Assembly (NCBI GenBank): GCA_961205875.1
Contig: OY540809.1
Location: forward strand, 12,102,267 to 12,166,266
Reading direction: 5' to 3'
DNA from: Sialis fuliginosa
Lineage: Eukaryota; Arthropoda; Insecta; Megaloptera; Sialidae
DNA length: 64,000 nucleotides
The translations under genes and the position numbers were made by a program. Of this stretch, positions 2,978-36,155 are shown one piece after another; positions within the stretch are counted from its first letter, which is position 1, and each line of letters opens with the position of its first letter. The notes under the pieces are model-generated. The model had not been told where the DNA came from and made no database searches. It was given only the letters and a program-made list of their open reading frames with translations.

Positions 2978-3202
2978 TCTATACTATAATATTATAAATA
3001 CGAAAGTATCTCTGCCTGTCTGTTTGTTACCTTTTCACGGCTAAACCACTGAAATTTGACAGGCAGATAGCTTGCATCCCGAGGAAGGACATAGGCTACT
3101 TTGTATCAAAAAATTTATTAGATAAAAATGGATGTGTGAGATTTGTACGCGCGATAGGTTGTACTTTTCTGGCGAAGACATCTAGCGTGCAAATGCGAAA
3201 TT
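2978..3202 (+). mobile_element. Helitron-like element, 5' part
   Basis: It begins TCTATACTATAATATTATAA and continues through 'ctgtctgtttgttacc', 'cacggctaaacc' and 'aggacataggctactttgta', the order seen in the other Helitron copies here. The expected 3' end (GGGTAACAGCTAG) is missing; the copy fades into AT-rich DNA after 'gcgaaatta'. Confidence 0.75.
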
Positions 3203-4585
3203 AAAAAGCTATTATAATAAATTAATTAATTATAAAGCATGTGATGGTAGCAGAGAAAGACGATGATTACGCTATAACATGCTTGTCATATAAAAAGAGA
3301 GTTTTTGATTTAGTTTGAATTATTACTGGTCAATATAAATAAAATGGGTTACACTACATTCTCATTTTAATCAATTACATAACCAAATCAATTACACAAT
3401 ACTAAACTTTGTTAATCAGCAAGATTAAAATATAATGCAATCTAATAATACCTCACAAACAAATTTTAATTAGTTGGTTACCCATTGGCGACGTTGATTA
3501 ATTAAAAATTACAGAAGATGAGTTATAATCCAGAATATCAAATTTGAAATGTTAATCTACAAGGTTTATTATCCACTGCAATTTATTGTATACAGATGGG
3601 TAATTTTTTTAAACTGTTAACATATGTCAAAATAAAAACAAATCTTCGTAAGAGAATATTTTACTACAAAAGTTGTGGTGACCTACTTTATATGTAGAAA
3701 ATTGAATGCTCTATAAAAAAGATTATATAAAAATTTCACGTAACATGTGTCGTTCTTTAGATATTTTGAAAAAATAACTATTTTGGGATATCACCCCTCC
3801 CCCTTACACACGATTTTGATGATTTTTAAATGGGACAGTCCTCTAGCTAGACAAAACGAACGAACCAAGTTTTATTAATATTGGTTTAGTGATTCATGAG
3901 TTATGCGTGTGGTATGGTTTCAGGGGACAGACACATACATGGAATAAAAAAAGGTATTTGTCTTGATCTGAAACGAAAAAATCAAGTGAAAATTTTGAAT
4001 TTCCATTTAAAAACTTATAGATCTATTATTTAAAGAATTCGTGATATTTTTTTCGATTTTATACAGATACTACTTTGAAGTTCATAAACAAATATTGCTT
4101 GAGAATGAACTTCACCGAGACATTTTGAGTCTAGTTTGGGAATAATCAGAATAGCACCTGAGAAGTTGTTAAATTCGGAACAAGAATTACCAATGTGTTC
4201 ACGAGTACATATGTACATAAAGATTTCAACAGACTTCAAAAGTGATCTTAAGCATGCTATATATAAGATTGTATACATATGAACTCGTATGCCATTTTCA
4301 ACATAGGTATGTATATCTCAAAGGGGTATACCTATATTTATTCACATCTTTTGATATTGATTTAAGGTTATTTGATCATTAGAGCAATGTATTTATAAAA
4401 GTCTAAAATTTTAATATGTTATTTATGCATAGCTCATATATTTTACTATTAAAAAAAAAATATTGGACGTATGGTTTTTGAGTAATTGGATATTAAAAAT
4501 AGGAGTTTTTAATACACGGTAAATGAGATAACTCGCCGTAAATGCTCTATTTATTGAAATTCTATACAGAGACGTTTTAAATACT
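3203..4585. other. AT-rich DNA with faint repeat traces
   Basis: No gene is visible. A segment near 3780-3960 ('tcacccctccccc', 'ggggacagacacatac') reads like a decayed dispersed repeat but has no second copy in this window. Short frames near 4030-4600 have no recognisable motif. Confidence 0.45.
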
Positions 4586-10592: not shown

Positions 10593-11352
10593 AGGCATTT
10601 ATCTTGAAACTGCTTAATATCTGGAAAACTACGGATTTTTACGGAAAATATTTAGTACAAAAGTTTCAGGATTTGGAGGGGCAAAACTAATCGAGGTAAC
10701 AATTTTGACCATGAGTGGAGGTCTCAAGGTAATTTTGGGGTCAAATAACTTTTTTCAAATTGAAACCTATTTATTGTTTTGCAGATTTGGATTTTGCAGA
10801 AAAAATGAAACAACTATTACCTGAAAAGTTTTTTTTTTAAACTTCAATTTTACTGCAATTTTTTTACATAAAAATTTTTTTTTGCGTTTAAAATTTCTTT
10901 TTTTTTAACTTCTAGGAAAATAATTACAAAATTTTTGAACGCAAAAAAAATTTTATATGTAAAAAATTTTTTTGTTAAAATTGAAGTTTTTAAAAAAATA
11001 GTTGACCCCAGAATGACCTTAAAACCTCCACTCAAGGTCAAAATTGTTACCTCCATTAGTTTCACCTCTCCAAATCCTGAAACTTTTGTACTAAATATTT
11101 TCCGGAGAATAATTACAGAATTTTTTAACGCAAAAAAAATTTTATATGTAAAAAAAATTTTTTTGTTAGAATATAAGTTTTTTTTTAAAATAGTTGACCC
11201 CAAAATGACCTTGAAACCTCCACTCAAGGTCAAAATCGTTACCTCCATTAGTTTTGCCTCTCCAAATCCTGAAACTTTTGTACTAAATATTTTCCGTAAA
11301 AATCCGTAGTTTTCCAGATATTAAGCAGTCTCAAGATCAATGCCTCATCCTG
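10593..11352. mobile_element. TIR element E, copy 1 (with internal duplication)
   Basis: The right end (gcctcatcctg followed by TA) and the left end are inverted over about 100 bp, including 'atatctggaaaactacgg' and 'aaagtttcaggatttgg'. The right-arm block with 'ccactcaaggtcaaaat' occurs twice in tandem (about 11000 and 11200). The reading frames across 10850-11309 on both strands are by-products of this repeat. A second copy is at 60969-61623. TA target inferred. Confidence 0.75.
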
Positions 11353-17296: not shown

Positions 17297-17419
17297 CACT
17301 GAGAAAAAAAATATTTATTATTATTAATTTACAATACGTAATAGAAATTTCGGACACTGTTTATGAATAAAACTTCCAACACATTTCTTGTAAATTTGAC
17401 TCGGAAATTTTTGACAGTG
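17297..17419. mobile_element. Miniature relative of the CACTA-like element
   Basis: It starts CACTGAGAAAAAAAATATT and ends TTTTTGACAGTG, with TA either side. Read from its right end, CACTGTCAAAAATTTCC, then 'ttacaagaaatgtgttggaa', parallels the right end of the 26091-32449 element (CACTGTCAAAAATTTCT, then 'ttacaaaaatgtgtaggaa'). An internal CACTGT is also present. It is 123 bp with no coding. Confidence 0.65.
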
Positions 17420-25884: not shown

Positions 25885-26090
25885 TAAAATTTCATGAGTC
25901 TTCACTTATCTACGTCATTGTGATAATTAATGGTCGTACGTGATTCAGGGACCCTCAAAATGTACAATTTCGTTGAAAGTATTTCATGATTACTATACTT
26001 TATTAACTATAGGTTCCTAAACACGGTAAATTAATATAATTTACATCATCTTTAATAAGTACAATTAATTTGAGTTCTAAAGAATGGGTG
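25885..26090. repeat. Dispersed repeat B, copy 2 (left half)
   Basis: It matches repeat B copy 1 from 'tttaaaatttcatgagtc' to 'tctaaagaatgggt'. The right half resumes at 32450 ('tgtcaattctg') and runs to about 32646. The CACTA-like element separates the halves. Confidence 0.8.
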
Positions 26091-26304
26091 CACTGTTAAA
26101 AATTTTTGTAAATTTACTACATTTTTACTAAGCAGTTGCTTTGTAAAATTACAAACTCTCGTATTGTATTGCAATTTTCAAACGCATTCGTAGTAATATT
26201 GCAATTTGTAATAACAAGAGTACTAAGCAGGTTGCAATTTTACAAATTTTTTGTATTCGTCAGAAACTAGTTGTAATTTTACCATTCAAAGTTGTAGAAT
26301 TAAA

Positions 26305-27120
26305 TCTAAAGTTTTGTAAAATTTCCATACATATTCGGAATTTAATTTTACCACAATTATCTGTAAAATTACTAACCAAAATTTGCAATTACAATCTCAA
26401 GAAGTGATTGGAAATTTACAAATCATTATTTATTTTTTCAAATTTTGTTTGCATTTTTACAAAAATTCATTCAAGTCATGAGCGCTATGTATTTTTACAA
26501 GTCTTGTTTGTAATTTTAAGTCTAAAACTTTGTAAAATTTCTACACATATTCGGAATTTAATTTTACCACATTTATCTGTAAAATTACTAACCAAAATTT
26601 GCAATTACAATCTCAAGAAGTGATTGGAAATTTACAAATTATTATTTATTTTTTCAAATTCTGTTTGCATTTTTACAAAAATTCATTCAAGTCATGAGCG
26701 CTATGTATTTTTACAATTCTTATTTGTAATTTCAAGTCTAAAACTTTGTAAAATTTCTACACATATTCGGATTTTGATTTTACCAAGATTAATAGTAAAA
26801 TTACTAACCGAAACTTGCAGTTACAATTACAGGAAATTTACAAATCATTACTTTTTTTTTGAAAATTCTGTTTGCATTTTTACAAAATTTCTTTCAAGTC
26901 ATGAGCGCTATGTATTTTTACAATTCTTGTTTGTAATTTCAAGTCTAAAATTTTGTAAAATTTCTATACCTATTTGTAGTCTAATCTTACTACAGTTATC
27001 AAAAAAATGACTAACTGAAATACGTAATCCAAATTGCAAAAAGTGATTGAAAAATTGTAAAACTTTAATTACTTTAGATTTGTTTATATTTTTACTAGTG
27101 TCTCTTACAATCATATAGTT
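26305..27120 (+). repeat. Left subterminal tandem array, 216-bp units
   Basis: Unit starts ('tctaaa.ctttgtaaaatttc') fall at 26305, 26521, 26737 and 26944, giving periods of 216, 216 and 207; the last unit is partial. Each unit carries several 'gtaaaattac' or 'tttacaa' motifs. Because 216 is a multiple of three, one stop-free frame repeats through it; the resulting 71-128 residue frames are not genes. Likely role by analogy with CACTA elements: binding sites for the element's own protein. Confidence 0.88.
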
Positions 27121-27707
27121 TTATGTAATCTTCTAATTCTGCTGTGTAGTTTCAAGTATAAAACTTGGTATATTTATTTTGCATTTTTATAAAATTGTGA
27201 CTTATGCAGATTTAAAATTTAATTTGAATGCAGTTCTAAGTAAAATTAGTAGCAAACATTTATACTTGAATTGCAAGTATGAAGTATAGATTATAAAAAA
27301 ATATTTTTTTTTTATTAAAATGTTTTAATATACATGTTGTTTCTGAATATGAAATATGTTAGTTTTATAAAAAAAACCTCATAGAATCGATCAAGTGTAT
27401 AAAAAAAATTGTGAAAGAACCGAATTATTCACTGTGGTAAAAAATAGTGATAAAATTTAATTGTAAGTGTAATAGGGTATGTTCAAATCTGCATATCAAC
27501 ATTTTTTATATTTGAAAGTAAGTAAATCTTTGCTAATTATTATTTATGAATTATATATAAACTGGTCAAAATGCCTAAAACAACCTTTATAAATGCTCCA
27601 TATGCCGGTGTAAAACAACCTTTAATTTTATTCGAATTTGCAAGTCCCGACCAGCATAGAAAAAATCATTGTTGCGTTTCTTTTGACATGCCGACACAAG
27701 TATAGAA

Positions 27708-29514
27708 CAGTGATTCTCAAAGTGTGGGTCGCGACTCCTAGGAAGGTCGCAGAAAAATTGATGACATAAACCGAGTTTAGTAAGCAAACAATTATTTTTT
27801 ACTTGGTGTGAAAACAGTGTCCACTATTCGCTGAATTAACAATGACAGTTCTCTTGCCATTTGCAACCAACTTATTTATAGGCGAGCGGATTATCGAGTC
27901 TAGCTCGCTTAGAAATGACAATAACCGACCAATCGACGTTCTAGTGGCTAAAATGATTTTATTAAATTCTTTATATTTTTCTGAGAAAAAACATCTATAT
28001 ACATGATATTTTTTTATGCGGTCCTTCAATAGGTACACACATTTTTTTGTTTAATAAATCTAAATCTGCATTAAAAAATCTGAAAAAATTATGTAAGCTT
28101 CATTGGATTAAAATGAACATTTTTTGTCTCATAAACTTTTTTTTAAAATCAATTGTTTTGAAGATAAAAAATATTTATACTTTAAAAATAGCGAAAAATT
28201 CGTATATTTGTGATTTTTTTTCTCGGAAACTAATTGTTCAATCAAAATAAATCAAAAACAAAAAGAATCAGCCAACTTTGAACTATAACTATATTTTTTT
28301 TCATTTTGATCATTACTGTAATTAAATGTAAAAACTTCATTAGAGCCGAACTCACTCTTTGCGCCGTAAATCGATACCATGGCTGGCTACAACATTCATT
28401 TAATAATAATTGAAATATTTAAATACTGGGATGAATGCATCAATAAAAACACTTTAGAATATTTTTATTGCACATTTATTTGTCACGATTATTTTCTTTA
28501 TTATAATATTATACTTATCAGAACATCTACAAAAAATATTTCTGTTCTTGTTGCGGAAAATTTCCTTGTACAGCTAAAACATGCTCTTGTATGGATTTAG
28601 ATTTAAAATGTTGTTCAGTTTGTAGATGTTTTGATAAGTGTAACAATAAAGAAAATAATTGTAACAAATAAATGTGCAATAAAAATATTCTAAAGTGTTT
28701 TTATTGAAACTTTCATCCCAGTATTTAAATATTTCAATTATTAAACGAAAATTGTAGCCAGCCATGGTATCGATTTACGGCGCAAGGAGTGAGTTCGGCT
28801 CTAATGAAGTTTTTACATTTAATTACAGTAATAATCAAAATGAAAAAAAATCTAATTATAGTTTAAAGTTGGCTGATTCTTTTTGTTTATGTTTTATTCT
28901 GATTGAACAATTAGTTACCGAGAAAAAAATTCACAAATATACGAATTTTTCGCTATTTTTAAAGTTAAAATATTTTTTATCTTCAAAACTATAGCTTTAA
29001 AAAAAAAGTTTATGAGACAAAAAATGTTTATTTTAATCCAATGAAGCTTACATAATTTTTTCAGATTTTTTAATGCAGATTTAGATTTATTAAACAAAAA
29101 AATGTGTGTACCTATTGAAGGACCGCATAAAAAAATATCATGTATATAGATGTTTTTTCTCAGAAAAATATAAAGAATTTAATAAAATCATTTTTAGCCA
29201 CTAGAACGTCGATTGGTTGGTTAGTGTACTCGAAATAGCTGTAATCCGCTCGCCCTATTATACGAAATGGTATTTTCAGTACTGACCAACATCAAAACAA
29301 AGCCGCGCTCACTCATCACATTAAATTTAATTTAAAATATTTTAAGTAAACTCAATTAGTTAGTTAAGTTAATGTCGAAAAATATACAAATAATATTTTG
29401 TTCAAAGATGTACTCGAGATAAGTTATTAACTTGTTATTAATTATTATTGATATTAAATTTCGCTATTAATCACAATTATGAGTGATTCAATTCAAAAAG
29501 TTTGAGAAATACTG
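27708..29514 (+). mobile_element. Fold-back hAT element, 1807 bp, nested
   Basis: The ends CAGTGATTCTCAAAGT and AGTTTGAGAAATACTG are inverted with 3 mismatches. The flanks carry the 8-bp duplication gtatagaa (27700-27707, 29515-29522). Most of the interior is one large inverted repeat: arms about 27924-28530 and 28618-29221, loop about 87 bp. The right arm plus loop keep the 3' end of a protein gene (28543-28671); the left arm is an inverted duplicate. No hAT transposase frame remains. The target was the exon-1 donor of the DUF4806-like gene. Confidence 0.93.
28543..28671 (+). pseudogene. C-terminal fragment of a cysteine-rich CXC/tesmin-like protein
   Basis: The frame reads CSCCGKFPCTAKTCSCMDLD, then LKCCSVCRCFDKCNN and a short Asn-rich tail before TAA at 28669-28671. 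Twelve of the first 33 residues are cysteine. The spacing (CxC, x4-5, C, x4, CxC, x6-7, C, x3, CxC, x3, C) resembles the TSO1/tesmin CXC zinc-binding fold found at the ends of several transposon proteins. 'aataaa' follows 10 bases after the stop. No start codon or upstream exon is present: the open stretch begins at 28507 inside the inverted arm. It is a remnant of the parental element's protein, not a complete gene. Confidence 0.55.
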
Positions 29515-31981
29515 GTATAGAACATAGTTTCATGTGAACGCGCTGGCGGAAGGGGTAAATTTTGTTACATTTTATTTTCTCACGATGCTAAGCTACTGCG
29601 TATGAGCAATAATACGATTTTTGAACAGTCGTTATTAAAAATTTGTTGTGTAAAGATTGATGCTGCTACAAGTGATTTTTTATAATTCTGTTGTTTAATC
29701 CAATAATTGTTTTTAACGTTTATTGAATATATATCTGTTATAATTCAGGTAACTTTTTCACCTACTTACATCTTTAAGCTGTAGCCATTTGTCTAAACAA
29801 ATGATTTTTATTTTTGGAGTTAAAATTTTAAGGCAAAAGAAATATTTTCTTGTTTCAAATAATTTTTTTCCAAAACTAAGATTTTAATATTTGAAATGTG
29901 TAATCAAATTTTGATAAGTGTTTTAAAATTTCACGACAAATAAGTATAACTTCTAACGCGTGTACATAAGTACACATACCCACTTTTTGTTTTGTTTTTT
30001 ATAGACATGGATCATAAATATCGTCTTATATTATATTATATTATATATACATGGCTTCATTTTGAAGAAGATTCTGATAAGGCATATTGCAAATATATGC
30101 CAGGCCTGCTTGATGATCCAAATGTATGCGAAGAACTGCAAGAAATGGTGAAAAATTTAGAACCACCCAAATCTACATAGCCAACATTTCTAGTGGATAT
30201 TCGCGGAAGTGCTCGTAAGTAATGATATGTTATTTTAAAATAAATTCTTTACCACAATATTAATTTTTTTACATTTTATTAATTTTTTATGAGCAAAAAA
30301 AATATTTTGACATATTATTAATCAATTTTTTAGATACTTATAAAGAAGCTGAAAATAAAATCGTTGAGTTAGAAACAAAACCATATGTATACTCGACAGC
30401 AAATGAAGAATCTGCAAAAAAAAAGCAGATACTGATAAGAAGGCTCTGAAGCGCAAATTTGTTGCAAAGAATAAAGAGCTCATTAACAAACAATTTAGTC
30501 AAGCAGCATTGAAATGGACAGACGATCTTGGTATAAAAATTCGTAAGTAGTTTTAATTTTTTTTGGTAAAATTTTTTGTTATAAATATGCAACAAATATA
30601 TTTTTTTTAATGTTAGATTCATCTAATCCTAAAAGTCAACACACAAAAAGAAAAAAATTGAATTCTAAATCGATTTCAATCCCAAGTTGTCACCCATCTG
30701 ATGACACTGACATTAAGTCAACTTCAACGGAATTTTCCAGTGATGAAGACAACACTAACGGATTAGATCCAAACAATATATTAAATCCAAAAAGGATTGT
30801 AAAAAAAAAAGCTGAAGAAAAACTCGAGACCAGTGCAAATCAACCAATGACAATAGGTAAAAACATACATCGTTTTTTTTTTCTTTAATGTGTATTGGAA
30901 ACGTGATTTTTTTTGTTACAGAAGATCTGCATCAATTCATATCGAGCTGTTTTGTAAGCATCGGCAAACGTTTGTCAAATTTAGGAAGTCAATTAACCAA
31001 TTATTCAACCAGATTACAAAGCCTTGAAAATGTCATTGAAAAACTTCATAATTCAACAAGCATTTTGAGTGACGAAATCAGTAACTCTGAGAGTGAATTT
31101 GACATGATTCTTCCACTACAAAATGAAGAAAGTTTTATTAAATTTAATGATAAAATTAAAAATGATGTTGATTTTAAAAAAAAATTGGTAAGTAATCACA
31201 AATAAAATTATTATTTTTTTATATAAGCCCTATTTTATATAATTCGTTTATAAGACATGAATAATAATTTTCTTTTTTTAGATTTACAAATTGTTATGCT
31301 AAATAAACAAGACAGTAGATATAACCAAGAATATTGGAAAGATACTCCGTGCCTACATTACTCGTGATTTGGCAATTAATTATGTGGCAATCAAAACGTC
31401 AGAATAATCTTCAAAAAAAATTTAAAATTTGTGTTAGCATTAAATTATGTTATTATTTTCATAATATAAATTATTGATAACACTGTTATAATTAATGACA
31501 TATGTTTAATTGTTAATTAAATAATTAATAAATTAATATTTAATAAATATTTTATATTTAACACTAAAATACGCTGTTGTAGCATTCATTGATTTAACAA
31601 TTTTTTTCAGTAAAATTACAGTCTGATATTGAAATAAAGCTATGCAAGTTATATCCCGATGCATAGTAATATTGCAACGAGCGGTTTGTATTTTTTTCAA
31701 ATTGACTTGATGTAAGTTGGGTAGTAAAAATTCAATACTGCAACAAATAGTTTGTAATTTTTCGAAACTAAATTGGTATTAGTTGGGTTGAAAAATTACG
31801 ATATATGGTTGTAAAATTACTAAATGTATTTAATCTAATTTGTTTAGTAAAATTCCGACTATTGTATTGTAATATTACTAAACAATTTTTTAATAAAGGT
31901 TAGTAATATTGCAACAAATAGTTTGTAATTTTTCTAAACTAAATTGGTATAAATTGTCTAGTATAATTACAATAAATTTTT

Positions 31982-32419
31982 GTAAAATTACTAAAATTAT
32001 TAGAAACATTTGGCTTAGTAAAATTACGAATAATGTACAGTAATATTACTAAACATAAGTCTAGTAAATGATTAGTAATTTTGCGACAGATGATTTGTAA
32101 TAGTTTAAAATTGAGTTGTGATAAATTGTATAGTAAATTTACAAAACTGTGTTCCATAATTCCGAAAATTGTGGTGCGTAAAAACTTCCTACACATTTTT
32201 GTAAAATTACTAAAATTATTAGAAACATTTGGCTTAGTAAAATTACGAATAATGTACAGTAATATTACTAAACATAAGTCTAGTAAATGATTAGTAATTT
32301 TGCGACAGATGATTTGTAATAGTTTAAAATTGAGTTGTGATAAATTGTATAGTAAATTTACAAAACTGTGTTCCATAATTCCGAAAATTGTGGTGCGTAA
32401 AAACTTCCTACACATTTTT
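31982..32419 (+). repeat. Right subterminal tandem array, two 219-bp units
   Basis: Two essentially identical 219-bp units (31982-32200, 32201-32419), each beginning 'gtaaaattactaaaattatt', then the terminal repeat. Their identity implies a recent duplication. Motifs 'agtaaaattacga' and 'agtaatattactaaa' occur in both orientations. The 158-residue minus-strand frame across them is a by-product, because 219 is divisible by three. Confidence 0.9.
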
Positions 32420-32646
32420 GTAAAATTACTAAAGAAATTTTTGACAGTGTGTCAATTCTGTCTATAAGAAGAAAGCCATACCCAGAAAAAAATTATCAGA
32501 ACCAATTTGATCCAAATTGATAGTATGTTCTTTTTTCCTGGATAGGAATTATGTGCCTTGTTCCAAATGGTCCCCATTATTTTCCTTTATTTATTCGGAA
32601 CTGCTTTTTCTTGAAAAATCATAATTATCAATAGTATAATCCATAC

Positions 32647-32868: not shown

Positions 32869-33462
32869 AATTAATAAATTTTAGTTTGGGCTTATTGTTA
32901 GTCATTAAGGAGTCCCTATGACCACCTCCATCATCATATAAACTCGATGGTACCATACATATTATTGAATTATCACCAGAGTTGCAGAAGTTTGCAGTTT
33001 GAAATCGATAGGTACGACAGAAATGGGTGAAAAGTGAGTTGTAAGATTTGCTTACAACGTTGTCAAGCTAATAAAAGCGTGTTAAAAATATAGCTGAATA
33101 TATGTGATCTAAGGGCAGAATGGGTTTGTGTTTTACGTTCCCGAAGGTTTTTAGCGACCTGTAACCAAACCCGTTTCCCAAATTGCTCATTTAGCTCACA
33201 CTGAGAAAACTGTATATGGTCTTTATACTACCAGAAACATGATTTTATACTCCCTCTAGGAATAATGATGTGACTACCTTATTTTGTTTCTGATAATCAG
33301 AAAATATTACTATAGTAATATTTTTATATAATTTTGAGAGACATATCATTATATCTCTGCTGTAGCTGTATTCACGCTGTATTTGTCTAATCCGTGCGAT
33401 TTATAGTATCCTTGAAGTGAAACTTGTCTAACAATCTTATATTAATTAAAGTTATAAAGTTA
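32869..33462. other. Unassigned DNA
   Basis: It contains a lone tip CACTGAGAAAACTG near 33199, similar to CACTA-type ends, without a partner. No gene. Confidence 0.35.
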
Positions 33463-33531: not shown

Positions 33532-34066
33532 GGCAAGACATACACGAGTGTATGCCATAAGGGTTCCGAAGTTCGTACTACGGGGAATGTTTGGAGTCAT
33601 GCATTTTTGAGTAAAAATATAAAAAAATGTCAAGTTCTACTAATTGAGATCTATATTTTGACACCCCACTTGCCTAGATATCAAAATAAAAAAATCTATG
33701 ACGCCCCTCCCTATAATTCCAAAATTTAAAATTATATTGTTGACTTTAGTATTTATCGTTGGTAGTCCCACCAAAGCCTTGTTTTTTTCAGATTTTTTGA
33801 GCCAGTAGTTACAGAGTTAGAGGAAGGGAAACAAAATAAAATACTGCTTTTAGCTCCCTACAGGCGCCATTTTCGAGTTAGAAAAAAATAAAAAATATGA
33901 TCATGTTCTACTAATTGAGATGTACATTTTGACATCCCACATGCCCAGATATGAAAATAAAAATTAAAAATTTTATTACACCCCTCCCTTTTTTTCCAAA
34001 ATTTAAAATTATATTGTTGACTTTAGTATTTGTCGTTGGCAGTCCCACCAAAACCTCGTTACGTAT
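33532..34066. repeat. Repeat K dimer inside the LINE
   Basis: Two roughly 270-bp units share 'gttctactaattgagat.ta.attttgaca', 'cgcccctccct', 'atattgttgactttagtatt' and 'ggtagtcccaccaaa'. Related single copies are at 44680-44940 and 60291-60480. The junctions lie between LINE coding sequence (YYAYIRN) and LINE tail, so K inserted into the LINE or replaced part of it. Confidence 0.6.
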
Positions 34067-34310
34067 ATATGCGTAATAAATAGTGAGAAGAATATTATCC
34101 GTGACGATTTCATTTAAAGCTCTAAAAAGATAGCAATATTTTGATAATTTGGTTGTTAGTAACTCTATGTGATTGCGCCATTTCAAATTCTTGTCGATAT
34201 TGAGACCTAAAAATGTAACGCTGTTGACAATAGGTATATCGTTATTATCGAAGGGAATACTGTTGAAGTGTTCACCGAAATCTCCAAATTTGATAATTAT
34301 GTTTTATTAA

Positions 34311-35577
34311 CCCTCCGTTAGGCGCGTGGCGTACATGCGTAGACCACTACTATAAAAACTGTAACAATACAAACCACGCTTTATTTTAGCACGTGCCCTT
34401 TTGAGTAGCTGTCGATTACATATCCTTATATATTATTAGTTACTTAGTTGCAATTTTTAAGCCCGATGTTTTGAGTTATAGCGAATCAAAAACGGCTGGT
34501 CTACGCATGTATGCCGCGCGCCTAACGGTGTAACTATTTTTGTAGTGCTTCGATTTTTTATTCATATCATTTTTGTAAGAAATAGTGGTTTTATTTTATG
34601 GGCGTGTATTATATTTTACTAATTTCAAAAATATAGACATGTTTAACCCAAAAAAACTTTGCGTGGGAGTATTTAAAGCCCCACAAAGAGTTTAGGACAA
34701 TACCGAGCGTACGGGATTTTCATAATTACAGAACGCCACACCATTATAGGCATGGGCGTTCATAGGGAGGGGATGGGGCTAATGGGGTACTTACCCCCCC
34801 CACCCCCCTTGAGGGATCGATAAAATTAATGTAATATTTTATTCTATAATGTACTTGGGAAAAAAGTTTTTGTTTTTTTTTGGGGGGGGGGGGCTAAAGC
34901 TAATTGATTGTTTTGGTTATTGAAAGTCTACACATGGTCATGCCTGCCCAAAGTAGCGAAAAGTGAAAAAAAATACCTAGTGATCTTTTTTTTTGGTCAA
35001 TGCGATAAGGTCTAGGTCATCACCCCACCCCACTCCCCTCGGAAAATTTTCTTCGACTTTTCTGAAAATAGGCTAGGTGATTATGTCGGACGGTGCATTT
35101 ATTCTAAAAATCACAATAATTCGGCAAATATGTATAAAAAGACCATATGATATATATTCGCACTGTATTTTTACCTAAATAAAAATATCCAATTTTGATC
35201 GCCATTTTCATACTTTTCTTTGCAACATTTTCATTGAATTTTTGTTGTATTTCTATATATTAATCATAATTAACATATTTTGTTTATCATATTTTTATTT
35301 AGACATAGTATGTTTATTTTTTAAATTAATATAGAATTTATGACAATAAAACGTCTAAAAATGATATTTAACTTTGTTTATTTTTCCACAACAAAATATA
35401 TAAAAATTATAATAAAAATTATGTGTTGTATACAAAAGTATATATCAATAAACATCATAGTTCAACTCATTTGAAATAAAAATCAAATTCAGCTATTATA
35501 GACCCTATTGAAAATGGTCTACGTATGTATGCCGCGCGCCTAAACTCGCGACAGTAGTAAGCGCGCCTAACGGAGGG
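34311..35577. mobile_element. piggyBac-like non-autonomous element, 1267 bp
   Basis: The termini CCCTCCGTTAGGCGCG and CGCGCCTAACGGAGGG are perfect inverted repeats, flanked by TTAA (34307-34310, 35578-35581). A motif 'ggtctacg.atgtatgccgc' followed by 'gcgcctaa' recurs subterminally near 34499 and 35515, with an inverted relative at 34330, as in piggyBac internal repeats. GC-rich and G11/C8 stretches lie near 34790-34880. No transposase frame. It interrupts the LINE between motif C and the thumb. Confidence 0.93.
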
Positions 35578-36155
35578 TTAATATTGATCTTAAGACCGTT
35601 GCTGTCAAACCACCGATTGAGCTTAACTACTAAAATATCAAATAATTATTTTTTCGTCCTCACCTCATACACGACAGATATGTCGTCGGCAAAAATACAT
35701 AAACTATTATTTTTTAACACGTTTGTAAGATCATTTATGTACAAAAGAAAGAGTAAGGGATGTAGTAGGGAGCCTTGTGGTACCCCTTTCTTAATTGTTG
35801 TTATGTCAGAGTTAATTATTGTATGGAAATTATTAATTTCATGTTTCAGTTGTACATATTGATTTCTATCTGTCATGTATGAGGCGAAGAGTTGGAGAAC
35901 AGTTCCTCTAATTCCATAGTTATTTAGTTTAGTTAAAAGTATGTCCTTATTAACTGATTGTGAGTCGAAGGCCTTGGATAAATCAAAAAACGCATTATTG
36001 ATGATTAAAATTATATATAAACTAAAAGAATGGAAATTTCATGAATATATTAAAGTATTCACAAGTAAGTATACCATTTTTTTTTTGTTACTTTTTGCTA
36101 GAATGTTTCTAACGAACGTTAATGAAATTTTAAATAACATAACCTATCATTTATG

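Follow-up and report, generated by a model that had tools for sequence, protein, structure and literature searches.

A CACTA-like transposon of Sialis fuliginosa with a decayed DUF4806-like gene, no detected transposase and a motif common to both subterminal arrays

In a 64,000-nt stretch of the Sialis fuliginosa genome (GenBank assembly GCA_961205875.1, contig OY540809.1, positions 12,102,267 to 12,166,266 of the forward strand), which we call the window and number from its first base, we studied a CACTA-like transposon that carries a predicted, broken DUF4806-like gene between two long subterminal arrays. The element spans 26091-32449, i.e. 6359 bp as present, including a nested hAT-type element; when the latter and one copy of its target site duplication (TSD) are subtracted, 4544 bp are left. 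Its outline is given by the following features.

26089-26090: left copy of the TSD, TG
26091-32449: whole CACTA-like element
26091-26107, plus strand: left terminal inverted repeat (TIR), CACTGTTAAAAATTTTT
26305-27015: left subterminal array, 216-bp period, 3.3 copies
31734-32433: right subterminal arrays, 171-bp units (31734-32144), then 219-bp units (31976-32433, 2.1 copies)
32433-32449, minus strand: right TIR, CACTGTCAAAAATTTCT, 15/17 identical to the left TIR
32450-32451: right copy of the TSD, TG

The element begins CACTGT and ends ACAGTG, giving TIRs of the 5'-CAC...GTG-3' form, and TG flanks it on both sides, just as the initial annotation, made from the sequence alone, had read these termini and the 2-bp duplication. 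When all 46 CACTG and 35 CAGTG sites of the window were examined for pairs lying 60-12000 bp apart with a TIR identity of at least 15/17 and an identical flanking dinucleotide, the element's own ends were the sole pair to qualify, the identity threshold being the value observed for the element itself, and none of 200 dinucleotide shuffles of the window yielded a pair. A looser TIR pattern, with up to 3 mismatches allowed, matched the window 35 times, against a shuffle mean of 21.5; it matched without mismatch only at the two element ends, by construction, and with a single mismatch only at 17403-17419. Animal-type CACTA elements are recognized by a repeated subterminal motif at both ends and a TSD of 2-3 bp, and the element has both. 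Animal members with 5'-CAC...GTG-3' ends and a 2-bp TSD have been described (PMC6004678), as have others that combine a 2-bp TSD with CCC ends (PMC1636069, PMC4298943). The ends and the 2-bp TSD thus give good support to the CACTA-like class proposed in the initial annotation, and it is on its ends only that we file the element there. Its CACTG-like ends could instead place it in a different superfamily (Chapaev, Mirage, Transib or piggyBac), and there is no transposase present to decide; Mirage may fit, but Transib, with its 5-bp TSD, and piggyBac, with TTAA, do not fit a TG duplication. Chapaev, the closest of the alternatives, also has 5'-CAC/GTG-3' ends, but it makes TSDs of 3-4 bp, TWA in the case of Chapaev3 (PMC4079192), whereas the duplication here is TG and the adjoining three bases are GTG on the left and TGT on the right. 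We consider membership in any of these superfamilies distinctly unlikely.

The window also holds what appears to be a version of the target without the insertion.

2824-2962: paralogous empty target site, junction at 2851/2852

The element's flanks, fused with a single TG, align across this junction, with gaps on the right side; at the place of the TG duplication, the empty site has TT. Right at the junction the left flank matches over 28 columns only (E 5e-5). Since the flanks match again farther out, the left one at 2112-2304 (E 5e-37) and the right one at 3050-3222 (E 2e-30), the copy at 2.1-3.2 kb is a paralogue, holding about 0.5 kb extra relative to the filled site. The alignment supports a pre-insertion site, with one mismatch, and the repeat at 2851 that had been taken as the uninterrupted target can be kept in that role as a paralogous site.

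The long subterminal arrays of the initial annotation are likewise present, with periods of 216 bp on the left and of 171 and 219 bp on the right. Adjacent 219-bp units on the right are identical (219/219), and two adjacent 216-bp units on the left agree at 206/216 positions; the identical pair (31976-32413) next to the diverged left units may stem from a recent tandem duplication or from the assembly itself. Despite their differing unit lengths, the arrays have a motif in common, GTAAAATTAC. Counted at no more than one mismatch, it occurs 18 times in the left zone (26091-27290; 10 plus, 8 minus; shuffle mean 0.42) and 19 times in the right zone (31600-32449; 15 plus, 4 minus; shuffle mean 0.62), and has no site in the 2085-nt gene region or in about 2.1 kb of each flank. 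In the right array, 16 of the 18 steps between sites measure 21-22, 35-36, 58 or 68 bp. Because tandem copies inflate such counts and the motif had been picked from the same arrays, a cross-validation was made in which extra tandem copies were removed, the 171-bp relation inside the right array being retained, and 10-mers were learned on one array and tested on the other against 500 shuffles. Of the five best 10-mers from the left array, four proved enriched in the right one, and the five from the right array were all enriched in the left one; in each of these cases 0/500 shuffles reached the count. The learned 10-mers overlap each other and are not independent tests. The motif is nearly palindromic, which would suit a dimeric binder.

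Between the arrays lies a predicted five-exon gene, all on the plus strand.

30005-30214, plus strand: predicted exon 1, with one in-frame stop
30334-30542, plus strand: predicted exon 2, with one frameshift
30617-30856, plus strand: predicted exon 3
30922-31187, plus strand: predicted exon 4, with a putative coiled-coil region followed by the first half of a DUF4806-like domain
31282-31407, plus strand: predicted exon 5, with the second half of the DUF4806-like domain, one in-frame stop and then the terminal stop

The predicted introns are of the GT-AG type, 119, 74, 65 and 94 bp long, with consistent phases. The gene is broken at three places, namely by in-frame stops in exons 1 and 5 and by a frameshift in exon 2, and is a pseudogene. 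The open reading frame (ORF) at 27550-27702, a candidate first exon, had no family match and was excluded from the model. When the model was compared with PF16064 (DUF4806), a check suggested in the initial annotation, its C-terminal 73 residues gave a match (E 1.8e-4) whose 22.2 bits fall short of the 25-bit gathering score. The matching stretch crosses the last predicted intron and is joined in frame over it; none of 9 shuffles of the 73 residues matched PF16064, one of them matching another family at 0.0082. The sequence upstream of the domain presumably resembles that of other DUF4806 proteins. A search of solved structures returned 12 rows at E <=5, the best at 0.0036 (a decarboxylase), which we took as matches of coiled coil or composition and not as relatives. 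It had been claimed that only an intron-containing DUF4806-like gene lies between the arrays; such a gene is indeed predicted, but it is a pseudogene, and it shares the interval with the nested hAT-type element, which takes up 1.8 kb of the span and was absent from that account.

No transposase, neither the CMC-type DDE enzyme of CACTA elements (Transposase_21 or a relative) nor any other, was found among the 10 Pfam families matched (E <=0.1) by the 70 stop-to-stop ORFs of at least 40 aa inside the element, in keeping with the claim that it has no transposase gene; the scan is weak for split or decayed exons, because it missed DUF4806 too. Applied outside the element, a scan of this kind detected a reverse transcriptase (E 9e-12). 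There is also little room for a transposase gene, since the DUF4806-like gene is preceded by about 900 bp and followed by about 190 bp when the arrays and the hAT-type element are set aside. Neither viral contigs (searched by protein and with a DNA pattern for the right end) nor genome contigs (by pattern and by protein), collections in which little animal sequence is expected, yielded relatives of the gene or of the ends, and tblastn against phages gave one chance-level match (E 0.5) in a Microviridae record. Within the window, this right-end pattern hits the two ends already known, by construction. The second of these ends belongs to a much shorter piece.

17297-17419: presumed 123-bp relative, CACTG...CAGTG with TA/TA flanks, left boundary less sure

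The right end of the large element recurs here at 17369-17419, 86.5% identical over 52 columns and with the same terminal base. On its left, the piece has only CACTG and a weak 16-base stretch in common with the large element, and flanks reading TA/TA are no rarity in sequence of this kind; its firm part is therefore the right end. Its left end, CACTGAGAAAAA, recurs at 33199 with one mismatch, which is at chance level (9/100 shuffles reach 2), and folding of the 123 bp gave no structure beyond that of shuffles (z 0.07). An element of 123 bp could move only in trans, and a second family end at 17369-17419 suggests that mobilisation in trans has taken place. By analogy, it is plausible that the large copy, too, moved with a transposase supplied in trans, as the initial annotation had it, but the transposase may equally have been present at insertion and been lost later by deletion.

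Our preferred interpretation, offered tentatively and with a chance of being right that we put close to even, is that the locus is a dead, non-autonomous animal CACTA-like cut-and-paste element with a DUF4806-like accessory gene of its own, whose product bound the arrays, and that it was mobilised in trans. We infer that the accessory gene is the element's own, and likewise the binding, the partnership with a transposase and the history of deletion. It can be hypothesized that the DUF4806-like (BEN-type) domain of the product binds the GTAAAATTAC sites in both arrays, that the region before the domain perhaps multimerises the product, and that the accessory protein would thereby bring both ends together for a CMC-type transposase coming from another copy. 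The division of labour would then be that of TNPA with TNPD in maize En/Spm. The present copy would probably have arisen by deletion from a longer element with two genes; after its insertion, the gene would have decayed and the hAT-type element would have landed within the copy. A TNPA-like, array-binding role of the DUF4806-like product is plausible, because the motif is common to both arrays and because DUF4806 has been called a subtype of the BEN DNA-binding domain, in a single sentence of PMC11075544 that cites Pan et al. 2023.

Of the two proteins of maize En/Spm, TNPA attaches to the subterminal repeats and TNPD is presumed to be the transposase; neither is dispensable, each can be provided in trans, and the TNPA-like proteins of different elements have little sequence in common (PMC2613891). 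Our element resembles En/Spm in its CACT-type ends, in a motif repeated in direct and inverted orientation at both ends, in a multi-exon gene for a non-transposase protein, and in that deleted copies move in trans (PMC2613891, PMC1636069), the last of these being part of our interpretation for the present copy. It differs from En/Spm in its 2-bp TSD, in having a DUF4806-like gene for which no homology to TNPA is claimed, in that no transposase was seen, and in that its motif lies within units of 171-219 bp, the motifs being set against those of plants by description only. A 3-bp TSD is the rule among plant CACTA elements. For a soybean CACTA element, for example, a TSD of 3 bp has been reported (PMC2613891). 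A 2-bp TSD and a tandem-repeat region are, in turn, what our element shares with SmTRC1 and the animal TRC elements. SmTRC1 makes short spliced products without a transposase domain, for which its authors propose a TNPA-like role, the proposed protein being without detectable relatives; its TIRs begin with CCC, unlike the CACTG found here (PMC1636069). Animal CACTA elements and miniature inverted-repeat transposable elements such as ENS1_Cis, CMC-NA_1 and CMC-NA_2 agree with our element in end signature, TSD length and the presence of short relatives alongside, the TIRs being compared by description only, but the miniature ones, unlike our element, are gene-less (PMC6004678).

Several observations weigh against the interpretation of a self-encoded, array-binding accessory protein mobilised together with its element. 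The gene is broken, so that no working protein would come from the present copy, and no transposase-bearing relative was seen in the 64-kb window or in the viral, prokaryote and phage collections. The TSD is 2 bp long and has one mismatch at the empty site. As for the motif, GTAAAATTAC was originally picked from the very arrays in which it was tested, the fifth 10-mer learned on the left had no clear enrichment on the right (47/500 shuffles), several learned 10-mers, though not GTAAAATTAC, are also found 1-4 times in the gene region, and the repeated spacings between sites are partly a product of the tandem units themselves. As for the gene, the score of its match lies below the gathering score of PF16064, and the 73-residue stretch was trimmed after an initial match of 130 residues (E 5.9e-4, 20.5 bits). 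The full read-through of 349 residues reaches only E 0.0076 and 17.0 bits, with an unrelated family at 0.0091, and unrelated ORFs of the element reach E 0.0014 by chance, leaving a margin of about eightfold at best. Because of the score and these background E values, we label the gene DUF4806-like and do not treat it as a proven DUF4806 member. The sub-gathering score, the background ORFs and the worse score of the longer read-through would all be expected if the element were CACTA-like, but the gene were not DUF4806 and the Pfam match had arisen by chance. That none of the shuffles matched PF16064, and that the matching stretch is joined in frame over a predicted intron, argue the other way, and we regard a chance match as very unlikely.

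If the gene is DUF4806-like, it may still have come to the element from elsewhere, as a fragment of a host gene or of a gene of another transposon that was captured as cargo, with the arrays being bound by another protein or by the transposase. Plant CACTA elements do capture gene fragments, the model keeps its introns and is decayed, as captured genomic DNA would, and only one gene-bearing copy was seen. On the other hand, the gene makes up about 1.4 kb of the 2.5-kb core outside the arrays and the hAT-type element, which leaves little other sequence, and in some lineages DUF4806 genes have proliferated in the manner of transposon genes. We find capture unlikely. The gene could also be the element's own and have had another job, either as a regulator or as part of a split transposase whose catalytic exons were deleted, in which case its product would not bind the arrays. 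It is by location alone that the DUF4806-like protein is tied to the motif, and SmTRC1, an animal CACTA element, gives rise to several spliced products (PMC1636069); however, DUF4806 is reported to be DNA-binding (PMC11075544), and a common motif fills both ends. Such a different job seems to us rather improbable.

Returning to the preferred interpretation, in which the DUF4806-like product is the array-binding partner of a transposase, the distribution of DUF4806 in other animals is of some interest. In a table that covers transposase domains as well, DUF4806 is counted 69 and 54 times for two Hydra, against 6, 0, 1, 0 and 0 for the remaining five species (PMC7642931); a gene set from an ambrosia beetle is enriched for the domain (PMC13270666). 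Expansion confined to certain lineages fits a gene carried by transposons, but is no proof of it. What our gene shares with the DUF4806 genes of Hydra, zebrafish, beetle and mosquito is the weak match to the C-terminal domain. In the DUF4806 passages of the four papers concerned (PMC7642931, PMC11075544, PMC13270666, PMC11445403), DUF4806 appears in gene models or domain counts with no mention of CACTA, and neither CACTA nor EnSpm occurs in the main text of the zebrafish paper (PMC11075544). A 2025 Hydra genome paper has CMC-EnSpm in its list of transposons, and 'DUF' and 'BEN' are absent from it as whole words (PMC12220107). No published link between DUF4806 and CACTA elements was found in the literature searched, a coverage outside which most subscription journals and Repbase lie. 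It could be speculated that DUF4806 proteins as a class are BEN-fold accessory array-binding proteins of animal CACTA elements, standing in the place of TNPA, and that the swollen families in Hydra, fish and insects consist of element genes or their domesticated remains; we think this generalization possible, but doubtful. Were DUF4806 tied to the arrays of an animal CACTA-like element, it would identify the missing accessory protein of such elements, and a domain whose function is unknown, and which some animal genomes hold in many copies, would be given a role. The present element points, as a hint, to an animal counterpart of the two-protein system of maize.

The remaining features of the window touch less on this question. 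The insertion between the left array and the gene is of the hAT type, which is defined by an 8-bp TSD and CAG...CTG ends.

27708-29514: nested hAT-type element, 8-bp TSD GTATAGAA at 27700-27707 and 29515-29522

Both the 8-bp TSD and the CAG...CTG ends were found, the ends reading CAGTGATTCTCAAA...TTTGAGAAATACTG. Its palindromic arms lie at about 27878-28533 and about 28619-29258, so that some 1.3 of its 1.8 kb form a single long palindrome, the loop of which is overlapped by a cysteine-rich ORF (28507-28668, plus strand). Among the 42 ORFs of at least 75 aa that are not wholly inside the CACTA-like element, one of which (31942-32451, minus strand) overlaps it, only a reverse transcriptase stood out (RVT_1, E 9e-12), the other 7 families having E values of 0.0038 or worse. 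The region 33914-36038 on the minus strand is probably a broken long interspersed nuclear element, the RVT_1 match, to judge by its residues, presumably coming from the ORF at 35649-36038. Scans of the window with Rfam, at the gathering threshold, and for tRNAs gave nothing. Outside the element, a separate tandem pair of 192-bp units, 90% matching, lies at 10915-11301.

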